Positions 990-21,637 of a stretch of 21,836 nt of DNA are shown here, one piece after another; position 1 is the stretch's first letter; every line of letters begins with the position of its first letter. This stretch comes from a virus. The DNA is taken from positions 1-21,836 of the IMG/VR virus record IMGVR_UViG_3300037245_000859, one strand, 5' to 3'. The translations under genes and the position numbers were made by a program. The notes under the pieces are model-generated. The model saw nothing but the letters and a program-made list of their open reading frames with translations. It ran no database searches and was not told the origin of the DNA.

Positions 990-1222
990 TATCGTGTCTC
1001 ACGCAGGTAACTGTTGAGCTCCCTGAGCTCTTGCCGGATGTCTGACATGTTCTTGTCCAGCCTCTCCTCGATGCGGGTGTCCGCGTCCTTCCGTTCCTGC
1101 ATCTCGTTTCTGACCGAGTAGTCAATCCGTGCCTCAAATGCCGCGGCAGCACCAAACAGTATCGCGCAAACGGTGAGAATCCAGAGGAACCTCCGGTCAA
1201 AGCTCGAGCTGCCATTTGTCAT
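989..1222 (-). CDS. Small one-TM coiled-coil membrane protein, putative holin or inner-membrane spanin
   Basis: The protein has 77 residues. A short polar N-terminus with basic residues (FDRR) is followed by one hydrophobic segment at about 12-29 (FLWILTVCAILFGAAAAF). A highly charged region from about 35 to 75, rich in Glu, Arg and Lys, then forms a probable coiled coil (NEMQERKDADTRIEERLDKN). It sits directly upstream of the endolysin with a one-base overlap and overlaps the fibre gene by four bases, which is the usual position of a holin. The shape also fits an i-spanin, with an N-terminal anchor and a periplasmic coiled coil. No second TM segment is visible, so it would be a one-TM holin type if it is a holin. 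The lysis role rests mainly on context. Confidence 0.7.
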   Translation of the reverse strand: MTNGSSSFDRRFLWILTVCAILFGAAAAFEARIDYSVRNEMQERKDADTRIEERLDKNMSDIRQELRELNSYLRETR

Positions 1223-2706
1223 TTCACATACTCCTCGTCTGAACCTAGAGAATTCATTTCAATGTGGAAGTCAAATTCGTAAAACCAAGCGCCCGAGGTA
1301 TACGTGTCACCTTCGTCGCTCCCGAGTCTTGTGAGCTTGCAAATGAGCATCGACGAGATGCCCTTCCCGGTTCCATCTATCGCACTGAACTCCGCGACTT
1401 GGTGCTTCCTTGTGGTTAGATCGGCCGCGTCTGTCACCGTGATCGCGGTTGTGTTTGGGAATGATCCACCGATGTCCGCCCATGTGTAATCAAGCCGCCA
1501 AACAACGTTACCGGCGGATGTGTTGGACGGACCCCAATGAACATGCGGGTAGATGTCCGTGCCTTCTTTATAGGTGTGCGGGATCTGCGCGTTAAACTCA
1601 ACGTAGTTACTTTGGGCGTTCGCGAATAACCAAGTGTGTGCGGCCCCGACGAACGCGCTCCATGTCGGTGACGATGAGCCGGGTCTCGTAGCCTGTGCCG
1701 CAACTCGAACATCATCCCACATCGTGTCGTCAATCGTACCGTCCTTGATCCTGTCAAGGAAGTCACCCCAGCCCTGCCCCATCCGCCGCGGGAAGGATCG
1801 CGCCCAGTGCTCGTAGTCATCTCTGAGGGTTATACTGCCTTCACCTTCACCCGCATCAATCTCATCCGCATCCAGCTCCGGGGCTCCCAGCGTCGGAGTT
1901 CCCGCTGTCAAACCACCGGCGGTGAGAACGTGCGTTTGCCCGATCGTTGGTGTGGCGAGCGTTGGCGTTCCGCTCGTGAGATCCGAGGCCGTGAGAACGT
2001 CAATGTCGTCCACGTCCTCGACCTCCGGCGTTCCCAGCGTTGGCGTTCCTGCCGTCAGATCACTCGCGGTGAGCGCGTGCTTTTGGCCGATGGTGGGCGT
2101 CTCGAGCGTCGGCGTGCCAGCGGTGAGGTCGCTCGCTGTTAGGACATGCTTCTGGCCGATTGCGGGAGTCTCGAGCGTTGGCGTGCCAGCGGTGAGGTCG
2201 TTGGCGGTAAGCTCGTCAGTGTCGCCGGCCTCGTAGTCTACCCACTCCGAGGCCGACGCCCCGGTCTCAAGCATGATACCGTCACAGTAGATATAGCCAG
2301 CCGAAACGTCTGCGGAGTCCTTTAATAGTTGTAGTTTTATCCCGGTGTCACCAGCTCCCATCGTAACAGTGAAGTCGATCCGGGTCCAGGTATCGGCGTC
2401 ATAGGTTGTCGTGCCGACTGCACCGAGTAAATTGCTGTCTTGGTCGTAGGCTCTGAAATTGATGACATAGGTCGCGTCCGTGGTGAAAATATACGCGCTG
2501 ATCGTGTACTGAGTTGACTCTTCAACCACATACTTTACATCACTGGTTCCACCCTGGATACCGGCTCTGGCAGCAACCGCAATCCGGAGAGAATTGGTTT
2601 GATCCCAAGCCTCTGTACTACTTTGAGAAACGACCCCGAAGACGTAATTGTTCCAATCGTCAACCCCGCTCTCAAGCGATGGGTTTTCCCACAGGTTAGT
2701 AGCCAC
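1219..2706 (-). CDS. Tail fibre-like protein with N-terminal CBM-like domain and five 23-residue repeats
   Basis: This 495-residue protein has three parts. Residues 1-162 resemble a CBM4/9-type beta-sandwich: NLWENPSLESGVDDW at the start, a middle strand pattern ESTQYTISAYIF, and an ending GYIYCDGIMLETG. Residues 166-278 hold five repeats with the core DLTAGTPTL. Residues about 295-495 form a beta-rich C-terminal domain with YPHVHWGPS at 386-394, a motif I associate with phage tail and fibre proteins. The likely role is receptor or surface-glycan binding on the virion. The start is GTG at 2706-2704, ten bases after the stop of the upstream gene, with a TAGGGG Shine-Dalgarno that shares that stop codon. 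The stop overlaps the ATG of the membrane protein gene by four bases. Binding specificity cannot be read from the sequence. Confidence 0.8.
   Translation of the reverse strand: MATNLWENPSLESGVDDWNNYVFGVVSQSSTEAWDQTNSLRIAVAARAGIQGGTSDVKYVVEESTQYTISAYIFTTDATYVINFRAYDQDSNLLGAVGTTTYDADTWTRIDFTVTMGAGDTGIKLQLLKDSADVSAGYIYCDGIMLETGASASEWVDYEAGDTDELTANDLTAGTPTLETPAIGQKHVLTASDLTAGTPTLETPTIGQKHALTASDLTAGTPTLGTPEVEDVDDIDVLTASDLTSGTPTLATPTIGQTHVLTAGGLTAGTPTLGAPELDADEIDAGEGEGSITLRDDYEHWARSFPRRMGQGWGDFLDRIKDGTIDDTMWDDVRVAAQATRPGSSSPTWSAFVGAAHTWLFANAQSNYVEFNAQIPHTYKEGTDIYPHVHWGPSNTSAGNVVWRLDYTWADIGGSFPNTTAITVTDAADLTTRKHQVAEFSAIDGTGKGISSMLICKLTRLGSDEGDTYTSGAWFYEFDFHIEMNSLGSDEEYVK
1873..2211 (-). repeat. Array of five in-frame ~69-bp repeats inside the fibre gene
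   Basis: Five copies of a motif close to LTASDLTAGTPTLETPTIGQ begin at residues 166, 189, 212, 238 and 261 of the fibre protein. The step is 23, 23, 26 and 23 residues. The third copy replaces the IGQKH end with the acidic EVEDVDDIDV, and the fifth ends in ELDADEIDAGEGEG. Copies are close but not identical at DNA level. Similar Pro/Thr-rich repeats occur in phage structural proteins, where they probably form a spacer between globular domains. Confidence 0.9.
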
Positions 2707-8866: not shown

Positions 8867-9579
8867 TACGATCCGCCAGAGTAGTTATGAGTTCCGAGCG
8901 CCTGCATGTTTGGCGGGGGCCTGAAGCGCATCGCTTGCATGAGCCTCATGAGTCCGCCGTTACCCCGCTGGTTCCCGTCATTTTGTCTGCCTCTCCCGCC
9001 GTATGCGTAGGGGTTGAAGCCCTGTCCGCCGTATCCGCCCTGCGCGGGGTCGGTCGCACCACCACCAGGGATCATCGTTGACTGCCCGCCTGGGATCTGA
9101 TTGTAGCTGCCGTTGTAACTAGATGGTTTTTCTGGCATCTGGTTGTTTTGGTTGCCCCAGTAATTGTTCATCCTGTCCATGAAGCTCAGGCCATTGGGGT
9201 CTTTGTACATACTCTCGGCTGTCTGAATCCCCATTATTGGCCCCTGGGGGGATTCTCTGTTGGGTCCGCCACCAGCGTTCCAGCCACCGAGGCCACCGAG
9301 GCCCCATGAGGGCTGCGGTCTGCCCCAGCTACCGGCGTTGGCATTACCAAATCCACCCGTGCCCGTCCCGGCCTGACCTCCGAATGAGGGCTGCGGTCTG
9401 CCCCAGCTACCGGCGTTGGCATTACCGAACCCACCCATTCCGCCATTTCCGCCTCCGAATCCTCCAAATGGGCTAAAGCCCCCCCGTGGTCCGTACCCGC
9501 CACCTGTGTTTCCGTCGCCCCACCGCTGACCGCCATACGGGTCGTTGACACTTGTATTCCCACCGCCACCACCGCTCAT
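8866..9579 (-). CDS. Gly/Asn-rich low-complexity protein with tandem 26-residue repeat
   Basis: The protein has 237 residues from the start chosen here. It consists mostly of Gly, Asn, Pro, Gln and Ser with aromatic residues and Arg scattered through it. GFGNANAGSWGRPQPS occurs twice, 26 residues apart. Short ordered pieces are ESMYKDPNGLSFMDRMNNYW in the middle and GLMRLMQAMRFRPPPNMQAL near the end. A longer frame opens at 9585 (MCM start). I prefer ATG 9579-9577 because it gives the 4-bp ATGA overlap with the preceding gene seen at six other junctions, and puts GGTGAG nine bases upstream. No function is recognised. Its position between a GNAT-like protein and three ejection proteins suggests a virion component. 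The composition recalls proteins that phase separate or bind nucleic acid, but that is only a resemblance. Confidence 0.75.
   Translation of the reverse strand: MSGGGGGNTSVNDPYGGQRWGDGNTGGGYGPRGGFSPFGGFGGGNGGMGGFGNANAGSWGRPQPSFGGQAGTGTGGFGNANAGSWGRPQPSWGLGGLGGWNAGGGPNRESPQGPIMGIQTAESMYKDPNGLSFMDRMNNYWGNQNNQMPEKPSSYNGSYNQIPGGQSTMIPGGGATDPAQGGYGGQGFNPYAYGGRGRQNDGNQRGNGGLMRLMQAMRFRPPPNMQALGTHNYSGGS
9306..9426. repeat. Two 43-bp direct repeats, 78 bp apart
   Basis: The 43-base segment at 9306-9348 recurs without mismatch at 9384-9426. It begins atgagggctgcggtctgccc on the plus strand. The 78-base period is exactly 26 codons, so the copies encode the same peptide and the duplication keeps frame. 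The exact identity suggests recent duplication or ongoing exchange between copies. Homologous recombination or slippage could change the copy number. Confidence 0.95.
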
Positions 9580-10022
9580 GCACATATGCTCACCATCCTT
9601 GTACGATCTTTAGTTAAACCAAGGAGGACGCCATGGCAGGTTCCGAAGTGGTCCCTTAGCAAACCCTCTTTTTCAAATCCAAATAGCTCCGCTACCTTTA
9701 TCGTGCGCGCGTCGGTCTCTTTCAGGATCAGCGACACCCTGCGCGCATTGAATAACCCCGTGAACGGGATTCTGATTGCTTCCTCACACAGGTGCCTGTG
9801 CCTCATCACGGACGGCCCGTCAGCAAACATGCTCGCCAGAAAGCTGCCTTCAGCATGGAAGCTCTGGATCACGCACGCTACCATCACGTTGTCACCCGAC
9901 TTCAGTCCGTAACCGTAGACCTCGGCCGTATCGCGCGGCCACTCCTTCTCCCCGTGCTTGCGCGCGAGCCAATCGGCGAATTCCCACGACTCCGCCGGGT
10001 CTCTCGGGAGCACCAGTCTCAT
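9576..10022 (-). CDS. GNAT-like acetyltransferase fold protein in the ejection cluster
   Basis: The protein has 148 residues. The C-terminal part NARRVSLILKETDARTIKVA then ELFGFEKEGLLRDHFG (about 92-127) looks like the last strands and helix of a GNAT fold, where a partner residue segment is followed by a GFxxEGxLR turn. The N-terminus (ESWEFADWLARKHG) and the central AEGSFLASMF are compatible. I do not see a clean Q/R-x-x-G-x-G/A acetyl-CoA loop, so activity is uncertain. Its place between the hub gene and ejection genes parallels T7 gene 13, a small internal virion protein. It may therefore be a virion protein that reuses the fold, or an enzyme acting on a host protein early in infection. 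It overlaps both neighbours by four bases (ATGA). Confidence 0.7.
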   Translation of the reverse strand: MRLVLPRDPAESWEFADWLARKHGEKEWPRDTAEVYGYGLKSGDNVMVACVIQSFHAEGSFLASMFADGPSVMRHRHLCEEAIRIPFTGLFNARRVSLILKETDARTIKVAELFGFEKEGLLRDHFGTCHGVLLGLTKDRTRMVSICA

Positions 10023-14047: not shown

Positions 14048-14054
14048 ACCTCCT
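14048..14054 (-). promoter_or_regulatory. Optimal Shine-Dalgarno of the decoration gene
   Basis: AGGAGGT on the minus strand is a full anti-16S match, six bases before the ATG at 14041-14039. It overlaps the last codon and stop of the capsid gene, so the ribosome that ends capsid translation is next to it. It fixes the start of the 174-residue protein. Confidence 0.9.
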
Positions 14055-15009
14055 AGCTCTTGAAGAGGACGCCCTGGAGCGAAGCATTCGACATGGTAAG
14101 GTTACCAGCGAACACAATCGGCACCACAAAGGCATCCTGGTTGACCGCATTTCGCTTCTCGAGAGCGACGAAGTTGCGGTTGGAGTGCGGACGGAAGAAC
14201 AAGAAGTCGGAGTTGACGAAATACATCGTGTTCGCTTGGTGTCCAGAGTCACCATCATAGATGACATCCGCACCCAAGAACGCGAGAGTTTCCCAACCCT
14301 GTCGTCCCGTTCCGGTATCTGTGTTGATGCGCTGGATCGCCTGGAGGGCGTCCCAGTAGAATGCGTACATCGCCGCATCAGCGGTGATGAGATCGGGCTT
14401 GTCTGCACCACGAGTACACTTGATGTACAAGGTCTGCATGTAGCCCTGGATCACTGTCGCGTCCATGGTGCCATTCGACACCACCTGATTGCGCCAGAAC
14501 GTCCAGTTCGCACGGTTAATCCCACCAACGGTCCCCGTAGCGGGGACGTTCGCGAGCTGCGCCTGGAGTCCGGTGATCTGCTTCGAGCCAGAGCCGGTTC
14601 CATCCGAGTAGATCCCGGTGGAAATGTTGTTTTTCATGGTGCGATAAGCGTTCTTGATGCGCTTCTCGACCAAGTTGATAATAGCCTCTTTGCCGGTGTT
14701 TTGAACCTCGGCCTCGAGACCACTCGCGGTGACCACTACTGCGGCCTGCTTCCAATTGTATTCCGCGGCCGTCATCACGTCGGAAGGATTGATGTCGAGT
14801 TCCTCGTAGCCGCTGTAGTACTTGAACGTCGCGTTCTCGGCGTACTCCAGCTCCTCGACGATCGTCCGTCCGCCGGGTGCGGTGCGAACATTACCCTTGG
14901 AAGACAGGCGCGCGAGAAGGGCGTTACTCTTGGACACGTTGTCCGCAAGCTCGCCGCTTCGCTGCCGCAGGGTAGTGGTGATGATTTCAGAAAGATTCGG
15001 TGAAGCCAT
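14053..15009 (-). CDS. Major capsid protein, HK97-fold type
   Basis: The protein has 318 residues. It starts with a helical arm (SEIITTTLRQRSGELADNVS, then NALLARLSSKG), followed by an E-loop-like region GGRTIVEELEYAENATFKYY. Next come SDVMTAAEYNWKQAAVVVTA and the spine helix region EVQNTGKEAIINLVEKRIKN, which is typical of phage coat proteins. The C-terminal part has DLITADAAMYAFYWDALQAI, VIYDG, TMYFVNSDFLFFRPH and the closing strand region AFVVPIVFAGNLTMSN. There is no long N-terminal delta domain, and a separate scaffold gene lies just upstream, so assembly is probably scaffold-driven without a protease. An AGGGGG Shine-Dalgarno precedes the ATG and spans the scaffold stop. Confidence 0.92.
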   Translation of the reverse strand: MASPNLSEIITTTLRQRSGELADNVSKSNALLARLSSKGNVRTAPGGRTIVEELEYAENATFKYYSGYEELDINPSDVMTAAEYNWKQAAVVVTASGLEAEVQNTGKEAIINLVEKRIKNAYRTMKNNISTGIYSDGTGSGSKQITGLQAQLANVPATGTVGGINRANWTFWRNQVVSNGTMDATVIQGYMQTLYIKCTRGADKPDLITADAAMYAFYWDALQAIQRINTDTGTGRQGWETLAFLGADVIYDGDSGHQANTMYFVNSDFLFFRPHSNRNFVALEKRNAVNQDAFVVPIVFAGNLTMSNASLQGVLFKS

Positions 15010-16037: not shown

Positions 16038-16323
16038 TTTCTAATCCCCGTTCCTTGTTCTCGCGGATCTTTTCCCGCATGGTTGTTGACATTTCGTTTC
16101 CAACCTCGATCTTGTTATGTCGCTTCAGGAGCTCGCGGTGCTGCGAGCGCGTTGTCACCATTGGTGCATCGGGGAAGCCGACACCTCGGTACGGCTCGAT
16201 GTCCATGATTATGTTCGGGCAACCCTCATTATTCATGCCCCTCGGCGTGATGCTGTCGTCAGTCCGCTCATCCATTGGGACTACCCTGTGTTGATTTTTG
16301 TCGTAAACATAGACGCTAGTCAT
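16027..16323 (-). CDS. Small conserved protein downstream of the portal
   Basis: The protein has 98 residues and belongs to a pattern I know from phage genomes where a short protein separates portal and scaffold: IIMDIEPYRGVGFPDAPMVT, then TTRSQHRELLKRHNKIEVGN. Those segments contain the recurring DIxPYR, a Ser-Arg-Ser/Gln turn and the ExGN end. Its function is unknown, and a role in capsid assembly or as a minor head component is only inferred from position. The start codon lies within the last eight bases of the portal gene, with GGGAGG and AAGG embedded in the portal 3' end as ribosome-binding signals. The 3' end overlaps the scaffold start by 11 bases. Confidence 0.8.
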   Translation of the reverse strand: MTSVYVYDKNQHRVVPMDERTDDSITPRGMNNEGCPNIIMDIEPYRGVGFPDAPMVTTRSQHRELLKRHNKIEVGNEMSTTMREKIRENKERGLENAG

Positions 16324-18322
16324 CCTTTTTGCCTCCCTGGGCGTTAATCATCACGGTCATCATGTTCATGATGTCGCTACGCTGCTTCTGTGCCAACTTC
16401 GCCATCTCGATCTGACCGTCTTGCTCGAGCTCCATCGCCTGAAGCTGGAGCTTCTGAGCAATCTCCTGCATCTTCATCTCAAGCTCTTTCTGCTTGAGCT
16501 GTAATTTCGCCTGTTCGAGCTGTGCCTTCTGCTGCGCTGCCTGCTCCTCTGGAGACGGACCCTTTTCTTGCTGCTGGCCCTGGAATGCCTCCTCGATCTT
16601 GCCCTCGAGCTCCCTACCGGCCTTGAATCGTCTGACAGCGAACATGATGAGCTCGCCGACGACTTCCTTCGGCATGGCGCCGGCCTCTGCCGCCTGTATC
16701 CCGCTCGACATGAAGTTGGTCAGAGCGCCCATGAACTCCATGAGGTCTTGTTTCCGCAGGGAGTCATCCGGTGCAACCGTCGTGTCGCTCTCAACGTCAA
16801 TCTTGTACTTCCGCATGCGATCGTTCTTTAGGAGCTCCGCCGCCGCCTGCACTTCCTGCGGTGGCTTGTCCTGCATGCCACTCGACATGACGATGGTCTC
16901 GAGATCGTAGAGCTCGCCGATGACCTCTCCGAGGATGCGGATTGAGTCGCGAACGAACCGCTCCACGCGCTTCTGCTTGCGGCGCATACGCGATGACGAC
17001 CCGGATGCAACCTGCATCTTGAGCTCTTGTGACTTGTACGCCTCGCGGGGGTTCGTCACACCCCGCATGATGTCGGCGATACCGACGATCTCGTAAATGA
17101 GCTCCATGTTTGTCTGACGCTGAATCACCAGCTTGGCGAGCACGTCCGCCGTCGCCGCGTTCGGCGCCCAGAGGATTGCGTTTTCAACTCCACCGTTGGC
17201 GATCACGCTATTGAAGTTTGAGTCTCCGATGAGCTTGTTCTCGTCGGCATCGAACAGCTTCCCAATTGAGTCTGCATGCGCCGAGTCGTAGATCCCGCGC
17301 GCAACGATCGACTGCACGAGCCTGTCGATCCTACCAGTAAGGCGGTTCGCCTCCATGGCGTGATCTTCGTACATCTTGTACTCTGGGATTGGCTCGAGTG
17401 AGCTAGTTGTGTCGATCATATCGAGCGGTGGCGGGCACGGGAAGAACCCGGTTACACCGTACGGGTCGTCCAGCGGCTCCTCGAGAAACACCGGGCACCC
17501 CGGGGCGACCTTATATACTTTCCCGGTACGCTTCGACCAAAACTCCCAGACGCGAGCGAACTCCTGCCGGCCCGCCTCGTACCCCAGGTAGTTGATCTTG
17601 CCGTGTTGGTCCTGTACATCCCTCGCGAGCGGAACCTTCTCCGCGATGTCCTCGCCAAACTGCTCAGTGAGGTCTTCCTCCGTCAACCACGATCCGAATG
17701 CGTTCCACCACACGTCCTCCCAGCGCGAGCCGTCAGAATGCGCGTAGTCTCGCCAGTTGACATGCTCGATGAATGCTTCCTCGGATACCTTCTTCTCCGG
17801 CCCGTCGCGGTAGAGGCCCTGCACGTCGGACTTGATGTCTTCGCCCTCTCCGGCGATCTCCGCGGCCGTAGCCTCATCACGACTCACTGGGATGCGCGTC
17901 GGCTCGAACTCTGCATTGTAGACAACTCGAACCTGACCGCGGCCGGGGACTGCGTAGTCCGAAACCGCGCGGTCCATGGACATATCGAATTCGTGCTCCT
18001 CGTAGTCCATGGCGCACTGAGTTGCGCGCTCGAGGATCTCGGACGAGAGACGCGCAATCGGGTCTTTGTCGAGGAAGCGGCGCCGCACGTCGGCCTTCGC
18101 CCCGCCAGTGTAGAGCGCCGGACGCTGCATCTCTGTCACTGCCCAGAGAATCTTGAATCTGTCACTGTCGTTGTTGACGCCGTCGCCCTCTCCGCGGTAG
18201 AGACTGATGCACCTGTCTCCGCGCTCGTGCCACTTCTCCATTCTGCGGTGAAATGCCTCTATCTCATCTTGAATGATGTCGATCGTGTCGCGTGAGGTTG
18301 CGTCGAGGCGCTCTTGTTCCAT
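16316..18322 (-). CDS. Portal protein (P22-like) with C-terminal coiled coil
   Basis: The protein has 668 residues. The start is helical (DEIEAFHRRMEKWHERGDRC). Core marks follow: RFKILWAVTEMQRPALYTGG at about 55-74, then MDRAVSDYAVPGRGQVRVVY, the wing region GVTGFFPCPPPLDMIDTTSS, and the stem-forming region MELIYEIVGIADIMRGVTNP at about 410-430 followed by long helices (RMRRKQKRVERFVRDSIRIL). Residues about 590-655 form a Gln/Lys/Glu-rich coiled coil (QQKAQLEQAKLQLKQKELEM), like the C-terminal barrel of P22 portals. Twelve copies form the DNA channel and motor dock. The stop of the preceding 150-residue gene lies directly beside this ATG, so coupling is likely. Confidence 0.93.
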   Translation of the reverse strand: MEQERLDATSRDTIDIIQDEIEAFHRRMEKWHERGDRCISLYRGEGDGVNNDSDRFKILWAVTEMQRPALYTGGAKADVRRRFLDKDPIARLSSEILERATQCAMDYEEHEFDMSMDRAVSDYAVPGRGQVRVVYNAEFEPTRIPVSRDEATAAEIAGEGEDIKSDVQGLYRDGPEKKVSEEAFIEHVNWRDYAHSDGSRWEDVWWNAFGSWLTEEDLTEQFGEDIAEKVPLARDVQDQHGKINYLGYEAGRQEFARVWEFWSKRTGKVYKVAPGCPVFLEEPLDDPYGVTGFFPCPPPLDMIDTTSSLEPIPEYKMYEDHAMEANRLTGRIDRLVQSIVARGIYDSAHADSIGKLFDADENKLIGDSNFNSVIANGGVENAILWAPNAATADVLAKLVIQRQTNMELIYEIVGIADIMRGVTNPREAYKSQELKMQVASGSSSRMRRKQKRVERFVRDSIRILGEVIGELYDLETIVMSSGMQDKPPQEVQAAAELLKNDRMRKYKIDVESDTTVAPDDSLRKQDLMEFMGALTNFMSSGIQAAEAGAMPKEVVGELIMFAVRRFKAGRELEGKIEEAFQGQQQEKGPSPEEQAAQQKAQLEQAKLQLKQKELEMKMQEIAQKLQLQAMELEQDGQIEMAKLAQKQRSDIMNMMTVMINAQGGKKDD

Positions 18323-18775
18323 TTAGTTCTCCTGCCGCTTAATGAAGTTCAACAAGGCACCGTAGAACTCACGCCGGGTAGCGTTAGGATGGTTACTACG
18401 CCACCCGTCGATGTCGTCGGCGTCCATGCCGAGCTGAACCAGACCATCACGAATCTGCGTCCAGTGTGTAGCGAAAAATGGCTGATCTGGCCCCCAGTTG
18501 TTACCGCTGCGGGTGTAGTCAACCCATTCGTCGCCGATGTCCTCCTGTGCCGCGAGGATCAGGCTCCGTGCCGCCTGGTGGATCGCCACGCCTGTCACGT
18601 CGTCGTTGATGGTGCGTGAGATCGCAACGGGGGGGACATACGGCGGTGCAGCAACTAAGATGTCCCGCCACTCGATCTCAGGGAAGTCGTCGCTCAACGC
18701 CGGTCTATACGGGTTCGTTCCCGGTGTACCATCACCGATCACCCGTGAGATCGCCCACATCTTCAAGATACTCAT
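18323..18775 (-). CDS. Hypothetical protein between lectin-like gene and portal
   Basis: The protein has 150 residues and no recognised family. It begins MSILKMWAISRVIGDGTPGT. A central region has helices (VTGVAIHQAARSLILAAQED) and tryptophan-rich turns (EWVDYTRSGNNWGPDQPFFA), and the end GWRSNHPNATRREFYGALLN is helical. There is no signal peptide, TM segment or catalytic motif that I can defend. It overlaps the upstream lectin-like gene by four bases (ATGA) and stops exactly one base before the portal ATG, so it is translated with both. A head completion or portal accessory role is possible but speculative. Confidence 0.7.
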   Translation of the reverse strand: MSILKMWAISRVIGDGTPGTNPYRPALSDDFPEIEWRDILVAAPPYVPPVAISRTINDDVTGVAIHQAARSLILAAQEDIGDEWVDYTRSGNNWGPDQPFFATHWTQIRDGLVQLGMDADDIDGWRSNHPNATRREFYGALLNFIKRQEN

Positions 18776-19860
18776 TTGAGTGCTCCCGGAAGATCGGGGT
18801 AGTTCGGCCAGGCGTTGAATTCGGCACCAGACGCAAAGCCCGCAACCTTCGTTCCCGCGACCGTCTTATTGCTTGCCGCCGACCCATACGTATCCACGGA
18901 CACGCCGTCCACAATGACCGTGATGTCTTCATCGTCGGCGTCGATGTGGATGTCGTACTCAGTCGTCGGCGTCCACGTCTGCGCCGATGACGCACGCTCT
19001 GTCTCGCTGCCGTCGGCTTCGATGATCTTGACCGTGCTCCCGGCCTGATCACCACGAATGATCCATGCGTGGGTATCATCAGTGCGCCTGATGAATATTT
19101 CCAGCGTTTCGGATGCGGTCGCTGTGTATTTGAACTGGTGGTGCGCGTTAGCCGTGCTGGTGTCAGTGTCATCCGCTGATGGCGAGGCGTTGTGGTAGTC
19201 GGCAATGCCGAGTTCAGATCCACCGTCAAGCCAATCGCCATCGCTCCACGGGGCGGGGAGGGCTACTAGGGCTATGTCGGCGCAGGTGAATACTTGGCTG
19301 ATGTTCGCGAAAGCAACATAGGCCGGGGTTGTGATCGCCGTCTCTGTAACCCAAACCAGTTTGCCATCCTTGATGAAATAATGACCGTGAGTGCTCGACC
19401 TTACAACCTGGAGGTATTTCGACTCAGACGTGTCGTAGACTGCGACATTACCAGCAACCCCGCTTACAATATCAATATCTGCGGAGGTGCCTGCTTGATA
19501 ATACGGCTCACTGGGAGACGCATTAACATTTCCATCGAAACCAAAACGGATTGAGGTGTTCGTCGCGCTCGGGGTGAATGACCAAAAACCGGCGTACCCG
19601 GTGGAGAGGGCCATCGGATCTGACGACCCGGCATTGTCATAGCCGAGATGGGCCCTTGGGTCCAGGCTCGCATCAACACCAGTGCAAACTAGCTTTCCAC
19701 CGGCCTTCGTCAGCTTGTTTCCGGTATCGGTGTACGCCATCTTCCCGCGAATGGCATCGCCAGGGGAAGCCAGCGGGGCGGATTCATCGAATCGGGCTGA
19801 AAACCATAGGATCGCGTGATCCTCGAGCCAATCACCAAGAAATACTGGTATTAGCGTCAT
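18772..19860 (-). CDS. Lectin-like (concanavalin A / LamG-type) virion protein, two beta-sandwich regions
   Basis: The protein has 362 residues and appears to hold two beta-sandwich regions. The first, about 45-205, includes STHGHYFIKDGKLVWVTETA and FTCADIALVALPAPW, a pattern found in phage proteins with lectin-like folds. The second, about 215-355, includes HHQFKYTATASETLEIFIRR, then WTPTTEYDIHIDADDEDITV with IVDGVSVDTYG, in which an end-on strand leads to a VDG turn typical of LamG-like jelly rolls. The likely role is glycan binding on the capsid or neck. Position between terminase and portal is unusual for such a protein. It overlaps both neighbouring genes by four bases (ATGA). The fold is inferred from pattern, and there is no catalytic motif. 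Confidence 0.7.
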   Translation of the reverse strand: MTLIPVFLGDWLEDHAILWFSARFDESAPLASPGDAIRGKMAYTDTGNKLTKAGGKLVCTGVDASLDPRAHLGYDNAGSSDPMALSTGYAGFWSFTPSATNTSIRFGFDGNVNASPSEPYYQAGTSADIDIVSGVAGNVAVYDTSESKYLQVVRSSTHGHYFIKDGKLVWVTETAITTPAYVAFANISQVFTCADIALVALPAPWSDGDWLDGGSELGIADYHNASPSADDTDTSTANAHHQFKYTATASETLEIFIRRTDDTHAWIIRGDQAGSTVKIIEADGSETERASSAQTWTPTTEYDIHIDADDEDITVIVDGVSVDTYGSAASNKTVAGTKVAGFASGAEFNAWPNYPDLPGALK

Positions 19861-20219
19861 CTCGGGTTATACCGCGTCCACACCGGCTTGACAATGATCG
19901 CCGAGCTCTGTGCGCTGGACGCTACGAGGTGCATGAACTTCATCGTGTGATAATTCTTCGGATCGAGCTTCACCATGATCGCCGTGCTCGCGCTCGCAGG
20001 GGTCGTGATCGTCAGCGCCGAGGCGCTCGAGTCGTACATAAGCATGCCGGCGCCTGCCGTCGGTCCAAGCCCTTCTTTCAATATGAATCCGGTGCCATCC
20101 CAGCCGCTCGCCGGGAAGATAAATCCCGCAAGTGACAGACCGCCCCCGTTGATTACGTTGCTGACCGTTCCGCTGCTGCCCAGGATTGTGAGATCCCCTG
20201 CCGAGGGTCCAAATGCCAT
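19857..20219 (-). CDS. Small beta-rich hypothetical protein after the terminase
   Basis: The protein has 120 residues, is rich in Gly, Ala, Ser and Thr, and has strand-like segments (GDLTILGSSGTVSNVINGGG, SAIIVKPVWTRYNPR). GWDGTGFILKEGLGPTAGAG suggests a loop-rich start of a beta-sandwich. There is no signal peptide or TM segment. It begins eleven bases after the terminase stop, with GGAGATAG as Shine-Dalgarno, and overlaps the lectin-like gene by four bases, so the two are likely made together. It might be a partner or adaptor for that protein. I do not recognise the family. Confidence 0.7.
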   Translation of the reverse strand: MAFGPSAGDLTILGSSGTVSNVINGGGLSLAGFIFPASGWDGTGFILKEGLGPTAGAGMLMYDSSASALTITTPASASTAIMVKLDPKNYHTMKFMHLVASSAQSSAIIVKPVWTRYNPR

Positions 20220-20230
20220 CTTCTATCTCC

Positions 20231-21637
20231 TCACAGCCTAGTAAAGGCTCCATGGTGAACTGCGGCCGCGATCCCGCGGTCGTGCTCCACCATGATTTCA
20301 TTCCATGTTTGATCGCGCCCATACCGCGCTGGTCGTTTGATCGACTGCGTGATGTTCGGCAGCATGACCGCTCCGGTCCTGAAGGCGTCCGCTGGGTGGC
20401 TCGACCAATCGTGGATCGGCTTCGACCACACCCCGCTCTTTGCGTCCTTGACCTTCCGGTACTGCCGGAGCGCCGAGATTCCGTCCACACACTTCTCAGA
20501 GTCAAAGCGGCACTTCGGAAGTGCCAGCCGTACGGCGTTAATCCCGTTTTCAACGCTCAACTTAGGAACTACAGTAAAGCGTAGTCCCAGCGATGCAGCA
20601 GTCTCGAGCACGCTCTTGCCCGTGCCAACCTCCCGCTGTTTCACGTCGTGTGGCGCATAGTGCGTCTTGTACACATACGGCTTCTTGTCCAGCTCTTTCG
20701 CGTAATAACCAATGCCCTCTCCGGCATGCGAGATGTAGTCGATCAGGTGCACCCAGCCACCGATGATCTGAGCAAACCAGATAACCATGGAGTCCCTCAC
20801 CCCGAGATCCCACCATGTGTAAACCGGGTACTCCCGCTCCCAGCGGATCTTAGTCAGCCTGTCGTCCCTGTCGGCCGCGTCCATCTCCTTGCCGTAGTAC
20901 GCTCCGGTCATCGGCGCCGAGAAATCGCAGTAATACTCCTGCCGCGCGATCTCCTCCGGCATCCCCATCCTGATAGCCTTCTTGACCTGTTCAGGCGTCA
21001 CGATCGGCACGCCATCCGGCCTCGATGTCCGCGAGATGTCCATCAGGCTCGTGTGCCAGTCCTCTTCCTTCTTAGCCAGCTCGTACAGCCTGTGCGCGTG
21101 ATTGAACCCTCGTGGCGTGAAAATGAACGCCGCCCACCCGTCGTTCGCGTCGAGAATCGGCTGTGAGAGATCCCAGCATATCGGGTTCATTAGCGAGTAC
21201 TCACTGAAGATTATCCCGAGAGGGTTGCCACCAACCAAGCGATCAGGCTGGTCACCACCAATAAACTGATAAATGGAAGTCTTTCCACTGGGGCACTCCT
21301 TCGTGCCGCCTCCAACGTCCACCTCCACCAGCATCTCATCGTTGCGAGTGCGTAGCACTGCCTCTTCAGGAATGTACGACAGAAACTTTCGTCCCTCATT
21401 GGTGCTACCCTGCCAAATCGCCTTGCGCGCCTGCGCGTATGTAGGAAAGACGTGCCAGTACGTCCCGGGGCGCCGGAACATCTCGACAACGCACATGTTC
21501 TCCGCTGTAATGTCCTTGCCGGCGCGACGGTGCCAAACCTCCACAAAACGCTTCTTACCGTCATTGAACCGAGCGTTCCAGAGACCGCGCTGGTGCGGCC
21601 ACGGGCGCCAGCCGACTGGGACCGTTACGTTAGGCAT
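20231..21637 (-). CDS. terL: Terminase large subunit (ATPase and nuclease)
   Basis: The protein has 468 residues and is the motor that pumps DNA through the portal and cuts it. The ATPase part has a deviant Walker A WHRRAGKD at 35-42, a Walker B region GIIFSEYSLM at 141-150 (E146 the likely catalytic Glu) and a coupling motif IFTPRG at 172-177. The nuclease part has the first acidic residue in WWDLG (D277), the second in APHDVK (D331) and the third in HPADAFR (D417), as in RNase H-fold terminases. The size is normal for podovirus terminases. The start ATG lies immediately after the stop of the upstream gene. The small subunit is not identified in the window and may lie beyond its right edge. 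Confidence 0.97.
   Translation of the reverse strand: MPNVTVPVGWRPWPHQRGLWNARFNDGKKRFVEVWHRRAGKDITAENMCVVEMFRRPGTYWHVFPTYAQARKAIWQGSTNEGRKFLSYIPEEAVLRTRNDEMLVEVDVGGGTKECPSGKTSIYQFIGGDQPDRLVGGNPLGIIFSEYSLMNPICWDLSQPILDANDGWAAFIFTPRGFNHAHRLYELAKKEEDWHTSLMDISRTSRPDGVPIVTPEQVKKAIRMGMPEEIARQEYYCDFSAPMTGAYYGKEMDAADRDDRLTKIRWEREYPVYTWWDLGVRDSMVIWFAQIIGGWVHLIDYISHAGEGIGYYAKELDKKPYVYKTHYAPHDVKQREVGTGKSVLETAASLGLRFTVVPKLSVENGINAVRLALPKCRFDSEKCVDGISALRQYRKVKDAKSGVWSKPIHDWSSHPADAFRTGAVMLPNITQSIKRPARYGRDQTWNEIMVEHDRGIAAAVHHGAFTRL

Follow-up and report, generated by a model that had tools for sequence, protein, structure and literature searches.

The terminase–portal junction of Mx8-like podoviruses as a recurrent, hypervariable gene slot, and the three genes that occupy it in one environmental phage

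Introduction

In lambdoid phages, morons are extra genes that sit amid conserved virion genes, being present in some kin and missing in others. In the particles of RcGTA, the head carries spikes, in each of which five copies of a small jelly-roll base protein (Rcc01079) form a pentamer that is combined with one larger, flexible, sugar-binding fibre (Rcc01080); the fibre is anchored on the base pentamer by an N-terminal Ile/Leu-Gly repeat, and the spike binds the host capsule (PMC7296036). The vertex decoration P2_50 of Peru-2 consists of Ig-like pentamers, i.e. accessory beta proteins on the capsid of a short-tailed phage, and has been proposed to aid host contact (PMC13320782). Finally, a study of the Mx8-like phage group reports that recombination affects the terminase genes more than the structural genes, which run from the portal onward, and does so separately (PMC10386132), a finding that offers a simple reason for extra genes collecting at the boundary between the large terminase subunit (TerL) and the portal.

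The window examined here is an IMG/VR virus record (IMGVR_UViG_3300037245_000859), analysed over its whole length of 21,836 nucleotides. It shares the core order TerL, portal, scaffold and major capsid protein (MCP) with both Mx8 and Mx9. While nothing lies between TerL and portal in Mx8, and Mx9 has three small genes there that are unrelated to those of the window, the window itself carries three genes of 120, 362 and 150 residues at this spot, as the first-pass annotation had described correctly in coordinates, sizes and junctions. The features needed for what follows are these:

20231-21637, minus strand: TerL, the upstream boundary of the slot (phrog_2, 4e-20; phrog_2472, 1.5e-42)
19857-20219, minus strand: g120, 120 aa, the first slot gene (open reading frame and coding score)
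18772-19860, minus strand: g362, 362 aa (open reading frame and coding score; Laminin_G_3, 13.7 bits)
18323-18775, minus strand: g150, 150 aa, the last slot gene, next to portal (open reading frame and coding score)
16316-18322, minus strand: portal, the downstream boundary of the slot (phrog_12082, 1e-124)
14053-15009, minus strand: MCP, used as bait for collecting relatives (phrog_9953, 4e-100)

The window and its operon

The main genes of the window lie on the minus strand in the order TerL, the three slot genes, portal, a 98-aa gene, a scaffold-like gene and MCP, and continue through an amidase to the tail/lysis end. The matches of the portal to phrog_12082 and of the MCP to phrog_9953, along with the core gene order, are those of an Mx8-like structural module. 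Similarly, tblastn with the portal groups the window with Mx8, Mx9, Stenotrophomonas phage BUCT555, Rhizobium and Bradyrhizobium phages, and others, the portal having 25-33% identity with those of Mx8, Mx9, BUCT555 and others. Judged by its genes, the window phage is an Mx8-like podovirus, predicted to infect bacteria.

From TerL to portal, the junctions measure 11 nt, -4 (ATGA), -4 (ATGA) and 0 nt, with g150 and the portal gene in direct contact (TAA abutting ATG). The first-pass annotation read the ATGA overlaps as the mark of a cassette. However, overlaps of -4 also occur elsewhere in the operon, at g216/g241, g683/gnat and g495/g77, and most of the remaining junctions fall within about 11 nt; given such tight packing throughout, the overlaps say little about a cassette. 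Based on a coding score trained on the window's other genes, the annotated frame is the sole one of six to score positively in each of g120, g362 and g150, and all three are therefore likely to be real genes; g120 is additionally preceded by its own Shine-Dalgarno-like sequence. By a consensus scan only, the slot region has one promoter-like site (1.3 expected) and three terminator-like sites (1.5 expected), i.e. no excess of either, and since there is also no intergenic room, the three genes are probably co-transcribed with the late head genes.

Spacing of terminase and portal across relatives

Relatives were gathered from annotated phages, from IMG/VR by way of the MCP and portal, and from two alphaproteobacterial MAG contigs. 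TerL and portal are adjacent in Mx8, BUCT555, ppBjS10J-1 and RHph_I3_18. Across 145 records with both genes located, the window included, a sample that is redundant, picked by similarity and has a few over-extended start codons, the gap between the two genes, taken from match midpoints, is <60 bp in 60 records, 60-199 bp in three, 200-999 bp in 64 and at least 1 kb in 18. Thus, the initial premise that TerL and portal are usually adjacent survives in part: the trio is an insertion relative to many kin, but a gap of at least 200 bp occurs in 82 of the 145 records. When the portals are collapsed at 75% identity, 68 clusters result, among which 22 have adjacent genes only, 27 small gaps only and 11 large gaps only, with the other 8 being mixed. 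On a tree of the 68 portal representatives, the spacing classes require 27 changes, and their clustering hardly exceeds that of shuffled labels, indicating that inserts have been gained and lost many times. A second variable place is located directly behind the portal; among the 51 representatives that have all landmarks, at least 1 kb lies before the portal in 8, after it in 14, and on both sides in one.

Contents of the slot in relatives

Clustering of the open reading frames (ORFs) within the TerL–portal gaps reveals that the contents of the inserts vary by lineage. Because kin carry either nothing or quite different genes at this spot, the TerL–portal boundary is a recurrent, hypervariable accessory slot, a site of swapping as opposed to the address of one travelling set. 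The small beta family F0, with 41 ORFs, mostly comes first after TerL. The fold predicted for F0 is that of a jelly roll (pLDDT 84.5), and comparison of this model with the PDB gives weak matches, none below E 0.001, the HFTV1 turret and a viral protrusion being among the best of them; this likeness of the modelled fold to turret and protrusion proteins is only suggestive.

The slots of six relatives hold related, beta-rich proteins of 400-719 aa (family F3). Among the four F3 proteins tested, those of L218, L166 and L140 pass NF048003, the 'phage head spike fiber domain' (with E values of 4e-45, 9e-59 and 5e-30 among the three), and that of L133 fails. The L218 protein is, moreover, homologous to the solved RcGTA head spike fibre (E 1.7e-35), and in both L218 and L166 the homologue of the RcGTA fibre stands behind a small beta protein, in the same slot that is filled by the trio in the window. 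Directly downstream of F3, in five of the six loci, is a small protein of family F8 or F15; hhalign relates the two families (probability 77%, E 2e-5), and the two F8/F15 proteins tested match phrog_18574. However, F3-like proteins also match PHROGs labelled 'tail', and the NF048003 domain is found in tail proteins as well, so that its presence is not enough to assign F3 to the head, and slot-encoded adhesins of this type may be tail-borne.

Some of the other contents of the slot are plainly not adhesins. Family F4 (414-469 aa; L152:3118-4527, L154, L156 and L164) is weakly similar to ADP-ribosyltransferases (ART-PolyVal; PF18760, E 0.01), a Cpn10/GroES-like co-chaperonin gene is present in L147 (6044-6355) and, by clustering with it, in L008 (4901-5161), and MW202489 has a PhoD-like phosphatase. 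A DNA methylase fragment is also among the slot ORFs of kin. The nearest relative with a visible slot is L011, which is sister to the window on the portal tree with 100% support, with 47% identity in the portal and 78% in the MCP, and the C-terminus of its TerL is 59% identical to that of the window. Its slot of 5 kb encodes proteins of 112 aa and 88 aa, a phrog_644 protein, a probable beta-helix protein of 513 aa, a protein of 313 aa and a repeat protein of 433 aa, with no gene in common between the two slots. By inspection, a second slot protein of L011 (3199-4140) appears to repeat the phrog_644 domain (L011:1193-1645, 5e-16) in its C-terminal half.

The three slot genes of the window

Neither singly nor together do g120, g362 and g150 have a homologue among 225 related loci, and tblastn of a phage collection (accepting E values as high as 10 for two genes), as well as searches of Pfam, PHROGs, NCBIfam and PDB sequences, gave nothing usable. 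Exact-peptide (8-mer) scans for the slot proteins found no match in IMG/VR viral contigs or, in the case of g362, in genome contigs, and scans of IMG/VR by the window's portal or TerL protein alone gave no close kin. Profile comparison detected no relation of g120 to F0, F11 or F14, of g150 to F8/F15, or of g362 to F3. A match of g120 to 7ong was discarded, that entry being a repetitive designed protein that aligned to a short GWDGTGF-like stretch. The first-pass annotation had seen in the trio a set acquired as a unit, which conserved co-occurrence in relatives would bear out; with not one of the three genes occurring in kin, that expectation failed. The codon usage of the three is also mixed, in that g362 deviates (z -4.0) while g120 (z +0.5) and g150 (z -0.2) look native, which fits poorly with a single recent transfer of all three. 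Tail genes deviate likewise (g495, z -3.9; g174, z -3.2), and g310 is similar to g362.

The labels 'beta-rich' and 'lectin-like' also come from the first-pass annotation. Judged from its composition and its position, at which a small beta protein is common among kin, g120 is probably a small beta protein. The protein encoded by g362, the N-terminus of which is MTLIPVFLGDWLEDH, probably has two beta domains, and its C-terminal half (residues about 240-340) is weakly LamG/concanavalin-like: Laminin_G_3 (PF13385) gives 13.7 bits (cut-off 27.6) over residues about 250-345 and is the only such match in the window, and a second LamG-fold profile, TS_C, gives 16.3 bits against a cut-off of 27 (E 0.008-0.03). 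Two weak matches speak for the lectin label, but profile search yielded no LamG/concanavalin-like match to g362 above a curated cut-off, and neither label is proven. A single-sequence AlphaFold2 model of g362 has a mean pLDDT of 35, too low for use, with strands at 239-318 reaching only about 50, and the two halves of the protein resemble neither each other nor the LamG-like stretch of L073.

Possible roles and origin of the trio

The reading that we favour, at about an even chance, is that the trio represents the present content of a hypervariable slot that is refilled by recombination, with its likeliest role being that of virion-exposed proteins, g362 as the adhesin and g120 and g150 as accessories. 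The slot would be emptied and refilled by recombination at the boundary where packaging genes (TerL) meet head-building genes (portal onward). Within it, g362 would be a glycan-binding adhesin, g120, as a small beta protein, would serve as 'base' or decoration, and g150 would be a small partner protein, and together they may help the particle to catch host surface polysaccharide ahead of tail engagement, as the head spikes of RcGTA do. We infer the adhesin function, the roles of g120 and g150 and the location on the head; a working like that of the RcGTA head spike is an analogy drawn from what kin carry in the same slot, and the likeness to the P2_50 decoration of Peru-2, which stands in a different gene context, is one of description. 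A surface adhesin plus partner, as originally proposed, is plausible, inasmuch as g362 gives its weak LamG-like signal and a beta-rich protein resembling an adhesin is often accompanied by a small neighbour in the slots of kin, although g362 has no NF048003 (GTA_spike_fiber) domain, the mark of a fibre of the RcGTA type.

A stricter form of this analogy would have the trio be a complete head-spike apparatus, i.e. base, lectin fibre and partner, recruited from unrelated families, with the TerL–portal junction acting as a fixed exchange site for non-homologous spikes. We regard this as distinctly doubtful. Of the parts of an RcGTA spike, the N-terminal Ile/Leu-Gly anchor repeat of the fibre is absent from g362; g120 is small and probably beta, and the F0 proteins that hold its position in kin model as a jelly roll but do not align with it. 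Against the favoured reading itself, the three proteins showed no homology to F0, F3, F8/F15 or any other sequence examined; the NF048003 domain of the window sits not in g362 but in g495 at the tail/lysis end (37.3 bits, above cut-off), with g683 reaching 15.7 bits; and the slots of some kin hold genes that do not encode adhesins. The tail location of that carbohydrate-binding type of domain, the match of F3-like proteins to 'tail protein' PHROGs, and a g495-like domain upstream of the scaffold gene in L072 would all suit another possibility, namely that the slot proteins are tail-mounted adhesins or parts of tail fibres that merely happen to be encoded in the head module. However, the known tail fibres of the group are usually encoded at the far right end (PMC10386132), and the window already has probable tail adhesins, g310 and g495, at its tail end, making this an improbable explanation.

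Alternatively, the trio might be a moron-like accessory insertion that serves lysogeny, exclusion or host takeover and acts outside the virion. This is unlikely, though it deserves some weight, since the slot is filled in the window while about 60 of the 145 records have TerL and portal contiguous, and since the slot of kin can hold a Cpn10-like, DNA methylase, PhoD-like or ART-like gene. Unlike morons, the slot genes overlap within the operon with no promoter or terminator of their own detected by consensus scan, and their co-transcription with late head genes argues against the idea. As to the foreign composition expected of morons, codon usage deviates in g362 but also in tail genes, and not in g120 or g150; the deviation of g362 resembles that of the tail adhesin genes g495 and g310. 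Least probable is that the trio is one cassette moving as a unit. Its ATGA linkage is tight, and F3 adhesins and their F8/F15 partners do travel jointly in five of six kin loci, but none of the three genes recurred in the 225 loci, the 8-mer scans of IMG/VR or the phage collection, codon usage differs within the trio, and ATGA overlaps are found throughout the operon.

The TerL–portal slot is thus a specific exchange site in a widespread group of environmental podoviruses, and, given the homologues of the GTA head fibre within it, host-binding proteins mounted on the capsids of short-tailed phages may be sought there. Were the slot proteins head-borne, rapidly swapped head genes would share with the tail fibres in setting host contact in this group; were they not, the slot would be no more than a common accessory site between two modules.

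Additional observations

Elsewhere in the window, g495 (1219-2706, minus strand, tail/lysis end) has CBM_4_9 and NF048003 above cut-off as well as several LTAxDLTAGTPTL repeats. A domain homologous to its C-terminal part (E 2e-8) is located at L072:1-450, upstream of the scaffold and MCP genes, such that this type of adhesin domain lies on opposite sides of the structural module in the window and in L072. In one IMG/VR subgroup, the region from the portal to the 98-aa gene holds, by inspection, fibre-like ORFs, coiled ORFs with an 'NAFQ' motif and a probable glycosyltransferase-like ORF, at the following loci:

L017:7751-8503
L033:4820-5611
L058:7666-8520
L060:7728-8519

Finally, a 148-aa ORF in the window (9576-10022, minus strand), which by inspection is acetyltransferase-like, is flanked by the 683-aa tail protein and a Gly-rich protein, and a relative of it is present in L011.
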